58,126 bases of DNA from Hydrogenophilales bacterium. GTDB taxonomy: Bacteria; Pseudomonadota; Gammaproteobacteria; Burkholderiales; Thiobacillaceae. Shown here in pieces: positions 39,388-40,470 of the stretch. The DNA lies in the NCBI GenBank assembly GCA_024636675.1, contig JAGXGM010000039.1, forward strand, positions 1 through 58,126, given 5' to 3'. Numbering within the stretch: position 1 is the stretch's first letter; every line of letters begins with the position of its first letter. The notes under the pieces are model-generated. The model did no database searches. It was not told where the DNA came from and worked only from the letters and a program-made list of their open reading frames with translations. The position numbers were made by a program, and so were the translations under genes.

Positions 39388-39414
39388 TTGACACCTGGCG
39401 CTTTTAGCTATAAT
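39388..39414 (+). promoter_or_regulatory. Sigma-70 promoter of the S24-like gene
   Basis: A perfect -35 TTGACA (39388-39393) and a perfect -10 TATAAT (39409-39414) with a 15-nt spacer, shorter than the optimum of 17. It precedes the S24-like gene and overlaps the candidate Rrf2/IscR operator just downstream. Confidence 0.72.
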
Positions 39415-39436
39415 CCCGAGTTAATTAGTCAGGTAT
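39412..39436 (+). promoter_or_regulatory. IscR/Rrf2 type-1-like operator, S24-like gene
   Basis: Matches 21 of 25 positions of the IscR type-1 consensus as I remember it (ATASYYGACTRWWWYAGTCRRSTAT). The stretch GAGTTAATTAGTCAGGTAT at 39418-39436 holds the perfect right half AGTCAGGTAT. It covers the -10 box and transcription start, where a repressor would block initiation. Confidence 0.5.
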
Positions 39437-39449
39437 TGATGAGGCCATC

Positions 39450-39812
39450 ATGAACGAACGCAGCGAACACAAGACCATACCGATCCAGGAACTCAATGAG
39501 GCCAGCAACTGCTCCAGCGCCGAACCCTATGCCTTGATGGTGCTGGGGGATTCCATGATGCCGGAATTCGAGCAGGGCGAGATCATCGTCGTCGAGCCCT
39601 CCGGCCTGGTCAAGGACGGCTCTTTTGTGGTCGCTTTCGTAAATGATGAGTTTATCTTTCGCCAACTCGTGCAGCATGAAGATGGCTGGATGCTGAAGCC
39701 GCTCAACCCGATGTACGAGAACATTCCTGTCGCGGATATCGATGTGGCCAAGGGTGTGGTCATCATGAAAAAACGCCCCGGCAAGCGCAGTGAGCAGAAG
39801 AGCTATGTCTAA
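39450..39812 (+). CDS. Stand-alone LexA/S24-fold protein, catalytic Lys replaced by Arg
   Basis: 120 residues. The serine motif VLGDSMMPEFEQGEIIVVEP (Ser35) and the GSFVVAFVNDEF strand are those of the S24 peptidase domain of LexA and UmuD. At the lysine position of LexA (VTVKRL) it has IFRQL (Arg71), so self-cleavage is not expected. There is no helix-turn-helix. L-x-P-L-N-P-M-Y at about residue 84 fits the family end. It may act as a partner or sensor rather than a protease. Confidence 0.78.
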   Translation: MNERSEHKTIPIQELNEASNCSSAEPYALMVLGDSMMPEFEQGEIIVVEPSGLVKDGSFVVAFVNDEFIFRQLVQHEDGWMLKPLNPMYENIPVADIDVAKGVVIMKKRPGKRSEQKSYV

Positions 39813-39869: not shown

Positions 39870-39884
39870 TCGCTATATTAGCGA
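39870..39884. promoter_or_regulatory. Inverted repeat upstream of the SOR-like gene
   Basis: TCGCTATATTAGCGA has perfect 6-bp arms around three bases. It is 78 bp before the SOR-like start and 11 bp before the IscR/Rrf2-like site. It may be a second operator, but no regulator is known. Confidence 0.5.
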
Positions 39885-39894
39885 ATTGAATATA

Positions 39895-39919
39895 GTAGTT
39901 GACTAATTCACTCAGGTAT
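39895..39919 (+). promoter_or_regulatory. IscR/Rrf2 type-1-like operator, SOR-like gene
   Basis: Matches 23 of 25 positions of the type-1 consensus; the differences are the first base and one base of AGTC (here ACTC, which also occurs in the iscR promoter of E. coli as I recall it). The operator covers a -35 TTGACT (39899-39904) whose -10 would be TAAACT (39921-39926). Confidence 0.58.
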
Positions 39920-39961
39920 ATAAACTGAAACCTGTTCAACCCTTCCAACAGGAGATAAACC

Positions 39962-40417
39962 ATGAGTGGACTGATCGCTAATTTCCCATCCGACGGCGTC
40001 GTGACCGTCAACCGTGTAGTGCTGAAGCTGGAGTACTCGGTGGATGACCTGCAGGAACGGGTGGCGTTTCTGTGTGAAAACGTCAAGACCTACCATTCCG
40101 ACACCGGCTTCGTTGGCGGCTTCGTCGCGTTGAACTCCGGCATGGTGTCCAACGAAGGCTCGACCATTGGCCAGGCGGTTGAAAGTCCGATGAAGGGCAA
40201 GGAGGCGCTGATCGTGACCTTCTGGACCACCTTCGAGAACCACGAGAAATCACATCAGTCGGAAACCTTCCAGCCCTTGTTCCAGAAAGTGCTGGATCTG
40301 TGTGAGAACGGCAACGAGGAAATTGCCTACGAGATGCTGTGGTCCGGCAAGGCCTACGGTCCCGACGAGATCGCAGCGGCGCGCCAGGCCAAGGCGCAAT
40401 ACGCCGACGCGGTCTGA
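39962..40417 (+). CDS. Single-domain protein resembling sulfur oxygenase reductase (SOR)
   Basis: 151 residues with an AGGAGA ribosome site. The sequence TFWTTFENHEKSH (residues 86-98) matches TFWKDWKDHEEMH of archaeal SOR as I recall it, placing His94 and His98 at the iron ligands His86 and His90. A later AYEMLWSG (Glu124) matches YEIIYA with ligand Glu114. GFVGG (49-53) matches GFVGF, and Cys38 lies near the essential Cys31. SOR is about 310 residues with two ferredoxin-like halves; this is one half. It probably binds mononuclear iron; sulfur chemistry is inference. Confidence 0.68.
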   Translation: MSGLIANFPSDGVVTVNRVVLKLEYSVDDLQERVAFLCENVKTYHSDTGFVGGFVALNSGMVSNEGSTIGQAVESPMKGKEALIVTFWTTFENHEKSHQSETFQPLFQKVLDLCENGNEEIAYEMLWSGKAYGPDEIAAARQAKAQYADAV

Positions 40418-40440
40418 TCGCCGCAGCAAGCGAAGCCAGG

Positions 40441-40470
40441 GCGGCGGGGGAAACCCCGCCGCTTTTTTTT
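40441..40470 (+). terminator. Intrinsic terminator after the SOR-like gene
   Basis: Nine-bp GC stem (GCGGCGGGG at 40441-40449, CCCCGCCGC at 40454-40462), GAAA loop, then eight T. It ends the SOR-like transcript 53 nt after its stop codon. Confidence 0.93.

Follow-up and report, generated by a model that had tools for sequence, protein, structure and literature searches.

We describe a half-size protein for which profile comparison supports homology to the N-terminal, metal-bearing half of sulfur oxygenase reductase (SOR), and whose gene carries an IscR-like promoter site. It is encoded on a contig stretch of 58,126 nucleotides from a Hydrogenophilales genome, hereafter the window. At roughly even odds (a probability of about 0.5), we read it as a single-domain relative of the SOR N-half, an IscR-controlled mononuclear-iron protein that handles sulfane sulfur, or iron, for the assembly or repair of iron-sulfur clusters.

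The gene occupies 39962..40417 on the forward strand, and its translation confirms the 151 residues given in an earlier note on this DNA; the source assembly (2.54 Mb in 90 contigs, 81% complete) has a single copy. A ribosome binding site AGGAG, read from the sequence, stands at 39950..39954 (+), 7 bases 5' of the ATG. Promoter-like hexamers, TTGACT-16-TAAACT, were placed by a consensus scan at 39899..39926 (+); they are weak alone, because one such pair was found where 0.7 are expected in shuffles. Likewise, the terminator-like stem at 40438..40465 (+), with 12 pairs and then a T run, is by itself little proof of a terminator, since the scanned region holds two terminator-like sites where 1.2 are expected.

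Relation to sulfur oxygenase reductase

The protein belongs to a large family without an established name: at E<=0.001, a search with the 151-residue sequence returns 4359 relatives. Those listed, 120 in number, are at least 81% identical to it; few are named, as 'ligand-binding protein SH3' or hypothetical, and they include Tbd_1515 of Thiobacillus denitrificans. The nearest named relatives, 97% identical, belong to a Hydrogenophilales bacterium and to Thiobacillus denitrificans RG. We call these proteins type A. A sister type B of 129 residues, about 33-39% identical to type A, turned up when 60 related genomes were searched. A profile of type B matches 4928 proteins, a number that may overlap with the 4359 of the first search, and some of the 120 listed carry the UniProt name 'ABM domain-containing protein'. 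None of the 240 relatives listed, 120 from each search, has a precomputed Pfam domain.

Taken singly, the protein has SOR (PF07682) as its top Pfam match, aligning residues 46-117 to positions 34-102 of the 300 in the profile, at 12.7 bits against a curated cut-off of 25 (E 0.057). It has no match in NCBIfam, and a single-sequence search of PDB sequences, at E up to 10, gave no SOR among 7 matches. The family profile, searched against the same PDB sequences, places SOR 6m35 first at E 0.002 (0.029 for the best stretch alone), and SORs make up 10 of its 39 matches; the triosephosphate isomerases that follow at E 0.02-0.12 look like chance, and an ABM protein appears at E 0.88. When 66 members were compared with Pfam at E<=1, SOR was matched by 43 (best 5.3e-4), YagK_YfjJ_C by 11 (best 0.023) and ABM by 9 (best 0.025). 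In the reverse direction, an SOR profile was run on 274 genomes of the class, and the best 11 sub-threshold places fetched (L114-L124) comprise eight type-A genes and three other proteins (L117, L119 and L122).

The most direct comparison used hhalign to align 44 type-A and 22 type-B sequences with 11 SORs, nine genomic and two from the PDB. The probability is 77 and the score 41.1, as against a maximum of 26.7 in 200 column shuffles and 14.6 for the reversed alignment, and either type alone scores about as high (A 39.5, B 39.8). Separated into halves, the SOR N-half gives a probability of 85.5 and the C-half one of 2.6 (score 20.9); as a scale for these scores, the two halves of SOR compared with each other reach 39.1. 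Because the score lies far above the column shuffles and is confined to the N-half, the profile comparison supports homology of the half-size protein with the metal-bearing half of SOR.

Structure prediction, made for the monomer, gives one ferredoxin-like domain of the dimeric alpha+beta-barrel type, which is consistent with a cavity that would be built from homo-oligomers. Its nearest structural matches in Foldseek and VIA-align are ABM proteins. Where SOR was aligned structurally, the range fell in or ran into the C-half and not cleanly in the N-half, and the two programs do not separate SOR and ABM folds. These matches, the weak ABM Pfam hits in 9 of 66 members and the UniProt name on some type-B proteins would suit an ordinary member of the ABM type, a metal-free oxygenase or isomerase that acts on small organic compounds, its likeness to SOR being superfamily background. 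We consider this very improbable, as SOR is the Pfam match of far more members and with a better E-value, precedes ABM in the PDB profile search, and is matched by hhalign in one half and hardly in the other. For the earlier note, which had suggested a one-domain SOR relative to be checked by profile and structure, the outcome is mixed: profile-level similarity, kept residues and a distribution among sulfur oxidisers speak for the relationship, and the monomer fold is of the expected dimeric barrel type, but the single sequence stays below the Pfam cut-off and the structural comparison does not single out SOR.

The residues of the SOR active site can be followed into the half-size family. The protein contains the motif TFWTTFENHEKSH with His94 and His98, and Cys38 lies before GFVG (residues 49-52). 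In the hhalign register SOR His86 and His90 are matched by His94 and His98, and SOR Cys101 by Cys114; all four runs that cover Cys38 pair it with SOR Cys31. Conservation was counted over 369 distinct sequences, many of them closely related (238 of type A and 131 of type B, five of the latter from phage contigs). Cys38, His94, Glu95, His98 and Glu120 are invariant (369/369), and Cys114 is kept in 368. The type-B protein of phage contig L156 has Ser at this position. SOR Cys104 has no equivalent in the hhalign alignment. In StSOR, the exchanges C31A, H86A, H90A and E114A are reported to abolish both activities, while C101A and C104A each lower activity about tenfold (PMC7398979).

The earlier note had matched the histidine pair and the upstream cysteine with these same SOR residues, and both assignments hold. 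Its third ligand does not: Glu124, proposed as the counterpart of SOR Glu114, is present in the protein but kept in just 200 of the 369 sequences (198/238 in type A, 2/131 in type B), and was rejected in favour of the invariant Glu120. Glu120 (GNEEIAYEMLWS) aligns with Glu114 of SOR (GPYEPLYEIVYA) in five of six trimmed hhalign runs; the sixth was run globally on a short slice and placed its gaps in this stretch differently. The spacing is similar, with Glu120 22 residues past His98 and SOR Glu114 24 past His90. The invariance counts and the hhalign register thus leave the pair and the cysteine in place and support, at the level of sequence, a predicted iron triad of His94, His98 and Glu120.

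Distribution and genomic surroundings

The spread among sulfur oxidisers that the earlier note had raised is indeed observed. GTDB genomes contain 373 confirmed stretches, and the best 80 of the 373 come mostly from Thiobacillus and its relatives, Thioalkalivibrio, Sedimenticola and Chromatiales, with Thiohalophilus and Sulfuriferula also present. Type A or B occurs in 55 of the 274 class genomes, own genome included (40 with A, 18 with B, 3 with both; two of the type-A matches, G417 and G539, are fragments), and in 8 of 299 genomes of a phylum-wide draw that also counts the own genome. A dsrA match at E<=1e-30 is found in 94 of the 274 and soxY in 146. Carriers have dsrA in 49 of 55 cases, non-carriers in 45 of 219 (Fisher p 2e-21, for related and hence non-independent genomes), and 54 of the 55 have dsrA or soxY. 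Two carriers with both genes have genomes of just 1.0 Mb (96% complete) and 1.1 Mb (99% complete). Phototrophy was considered as a guide to an oxygen requirement: reaction-centre genes occur in five of the 274 genomes, a sample too small for a judgement, and none of the five has the family. No type-A gene was found on plasmids, and none was confirmed in viral contigs.

A full SOR is present in 9 of the 274 genomes, five of which also have type A or B, and none was found in the own genome at E<=10. Among the full-length SORs, those of four loci (L110-L113) are divergent, with 31-33% identity to L105, and three of these four genomes have type A.

In the host loci examined we saw no conserved operon around the half-size gene, no adjoining iron-sulfur gene and no sox or dsr operon as neighbour. 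Its upstream neighbour in the window is a gene for an S24 (LexA-like) peptidase of 120 residues at 39450..39812 (+; PF00717, E 2.9e-19), found in 37 of 88 loci, the window counted. This tie to the half-size protein is one of position, and the S24 neighbourhood is synteny of Thiobacillus and relatives. Several local arrangements are recorded here as observations. An ArsR-type HTH and rhodanese fusion gene lies divergently upstream in one Thioalkalivibrio locus (L059:7138-7866, minus strand, by Pfam) and in nine more. In locus L002, positions 2013-2066 hold a partial second copy (residues ~114-150) directly 3' of the type-A gene. Some Thiobacillus genomes have a second type-A copy elsewhere (L042, L047, L050 and L052), without the promoter site (scores 15-16).

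Such a distribution could also be expected of a half-size sulfur oxygenase that serves energy metabolism, which would convert cytoplasmic sulfane sulfur and O2 to sulfite beside rDsr, the IscR site only tuning it to sulfur oxidation as a process with a high iron-sulfur requirement. The kept SOR residues, dsrA or soxY in nearly every carrier, retention in the two small genomes and the lack of a full SOR in the own genome fit this idea, as does an ATP sulfurylase gene that follows downstream in the same direction in three loci (L053 by Pfam; L055 and L084 by clustering). We nevertheless regard it as unlikely: no sox or dsr operon adjoins the gene in the loci examined, and both IscR-like control and iron-sulfur neighbours in phages would be unexpected for a bulk energy enzyme.

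IscR-like promoter site and phage copies

The Thiobacillus copies of the half-size gene have a block of upstream sequence in common. In the window it includes GTAGTTGACTAATTCACTCAGGTAT at 39895..39919 (+), which overlaps the -35-like hexamer and fits the type-I consensus at 23 of 25 positions. This consensus is that of E. coli IscR, given as ATASYYGACTRWWWYAGTCRRSTAT (PMC4521836). Among 88 loci, window included, 86 upstream regions were usable: 47 of them score at least 21, compared with none of 1720 mononucleotide shuffles (maximum 20). At a score of at least 22 the same loci yield 80 strand-wise counts, corresponding to 40 palindromic sites, all of them within 200 bp upstream of the half-size gene, and no such site elsewhere in their 1.13 Mb. 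The 728 upstream regions of other groups of open reading frames reach at most 21, and all 11 that score 20-21 precede the S24 peptidase gene. The inverted repeat CGCTATATTAGCG at 39871-39883 was also considered and taken as chance, as just three of the 85 remaining regions contain it with up to 3 mismatches.

Beyond Thiobacillus, high scores are found in Chromatiales (L053, L055 and L079), Sedimenticola (L056), Sulfuriferula (L045), a Thioalkalivibrio metagenome genome (L069) and a gammaproteobacterium (L081). A further ten loci from Thioalkalivibrio score 17-20 near -100, values that single shuffles also reach. In a second set of 44 type-A loci, seven of them shared with the 88, 12 score at least 21, or nine when identical sites are counted once. 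No site was seen upstream of type B in six host and five phage loci (scores 13-17).

The same pattern leads to the genes of iron-sulfur cluster assembly. When up to 3 mismatches are allowed, the own genome has four matches to it, one of them at the half-size gene, and none to the reversed pattern. Two of the four stand in tandem ahead of iscR, at distances of ~35 and 63 bp; this gene scores above the TIGR02010 cut-off, and iscS, iscU, iscA and hscA come after it. IscR-like sites were found in 38 of 40 genomes of the same genus, with the reversed-pattern control at 0 in all 40. The site lies within 200 bp upstream of 27 of the 32 type-A genes in this genus, a number that excludes one fragment at a contig edge and the type-B matches; four of the five genes without it are second copies, and in each case the other copy has the site. 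Together, these sequence patterns hint at a half-size gene under IscR control.

Two further sites may be noted on their own account. The S24 peptidase gene has its own weaker IscR-like site at 39412..39436 (+; 21 of 25 positions, site and gene spanning 39412-39812), and in 11 loci such a site matches 20-21 of 25. IscR would be an odd regulator for a LexA-like peptidase. The fourth site of the own genome (G000:C76:16836-16860, L164) precedes TrpD/YbiB-like and Rieske-type ferredoxin-like genes, both below curated cut-offs, which makes them a further candidate target.

Type B, in turn, is found in six IMG/VR contigs, two of which show no difference in the genes compared. PHROGs, applied to the genes of two contigs, gave ribonucleotide reductase, exonuclease and tail-fibre-like matches in L156 and a phage ATPase family in L154. 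In four contigs the type-B gene has an IscU-type gene next to it, separated by 4, 6, 6 and 182 bases, and a relative of the A-type carriers lies within ~2.3 kb in all six (weakest tblastn E 6e-7); Pfam confirms both kinds of gene in L154 and L156. Glutaredoxin-like genes in L160 and L161 and a Rieske-oxygenase-like gene in L161 were named by eye. The stretches, L154:8262-9211, L155:9610-10393, L156:10001-12009, L160:9678-10369 and L161:8509-10716, could represent a phage iron-sulfur cassette of a new kind. Genes for A-type carriers and scaffolds are known from phages in general. The type-B protein of L156 was not found in named phage records, and the terms 'sulfur oxygenase' and 'iscU' are absent from the main text of PMC8190135.

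Since the host promoter belongs to type A and the phage neighbours to type B, and since carriers and scaffolds are general phage cargo, each line alone is just suggestive in tying the family to iron-sulfur assembly. Both could also be read as signs of a non-catalytic binder of iron or persulfide, be it an iron donor, a sulfur carrier or a sensor, in which the SOR site is kept for binding only. The IscR-like site and the phage cassettes with IscU-type genes, A-type carriers and a glutaredoxin-like gene (by eye) would agree with such a protein, and a single domain may fail to form the SOR cavity. The joint invariance of Cys38, His94, His98 and Glu120 over 369 sequences is more enzyme-like, and we judge a mere binder quite unlikely.

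Proposed role and comparison with known systems

The half-size protein resembles SOR in its similarity to the N-half profile, in its equivalents of Cys31, His86, His90, Cys101 and Glu114 in register, and in its sulfur-oxidiser hosts. It differs in having 151 residues instead of ~310, with no second half, in lacking a Cys104 equivalent, in remaining below the PF07682 cut-off and in the IscR-like site of its gene. As size, Cys104 and Pfam cut-off fail, we do not file it as an SOR. SOR itself forms a hollow sphere of 24 subunits and disproportionates sulfur in an O2-dependent reaction. With the ABM/dimeric alpha+beta barrel superfamily it has the predicted ferredoxin-like monomer fold in common, but its His94, His98, Glu120 and Cys38 align with SOR, and its profile match to ABM is weaker than that to SOR. 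With the IscR regulon (iscRSUA-hscBA and others) it is linked by a promoter motif common to the iscR promoter of its own genome. We know of no SOR-like member of this regulon (the literature search was not aimed at IscR, and absence from print is not established). No description of the family was found in open-access literature, including passages of PMC5461723, PMC4835899, PMC7398979, PMC8190135 and PMC4521836, which does not establish that it is unpublished.

Our preferred explanation draws on the profile homology signal, the invariant residues, the predicted monomer fold, the promoter motif shared with iscR, the co-occurrence with dsrA and the phage neighbours. Two copies would probably pair into an alpha+beta barrel, and His94, His98 and Glu120 of each copy would hold one iron. 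Cys38 may carry sulfane sulfur as a persulfide, which the iron would oxidise, disproportionate or release. IscR, if it binds the site with the sign that we infer, would govern the gene, and the protein would therefore be made when iron-sulfur clusters are short. In cells of heavy sulfur flux it would then handle sulfane sulfur, or iron, so that clusters can be assembled or repaired. Counted against this explanation are the Pfam score below cut-off, the single-sequence PDB search without an SOR, the ABM-like folds, the absent Cys104, the lack of an iron-sulfur neighbour in the host loci examined, and the type-B, phage and second copies without a site.

In this explanation the residues tie the family to SOR chemistry and the distribution ties it to sulfur oxidation, as far as sequence comparison can tell, and promoter and phage neighbours point to iron-sulfur assembly, a role that the earlier note, which had offered a sulfur or iron enzyme or a sensor, did not anticipate. 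Most simply, the protein would bind a single iron, handle persulfide and be expressed under cluster shortage, and it may work like half an SOR. A bolder version, which we hold to be doubtful, would make the widespread one-domain SOR branch the dedicated sulfur or iron supply enzyme of iron-sulfur assembly: signalled by IscR, it would use a mononuclear iron to turn sulfane sulfur, which sulfur oxidisers have to spare, into sulfide close to the ISC machinery. It would thereby back up the cysteine desulfurase, and phages would carry it in iron-sulfur cassettes.

SOR is regarded as a two-domain enzyme, and a common relative with one domain and the same active-site residues would illustrate what one half of such an enzyme can be. 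The findings hint that a protein handling sulfur or iron has gone unrecognised, and SOR-type chemistry would extend to Thiobacillus, Thioalkalivibrio, Sedimenticola and sulfur oxidisers with genomes of 1.0-1.1 Mb. The IscR-like site and the phage neighbours lead to a sharp, testable hypothesis on the way in which sulfur oxidisers may link the flux of sulfane sulfur with the assembly of iron-sulfur clusters.
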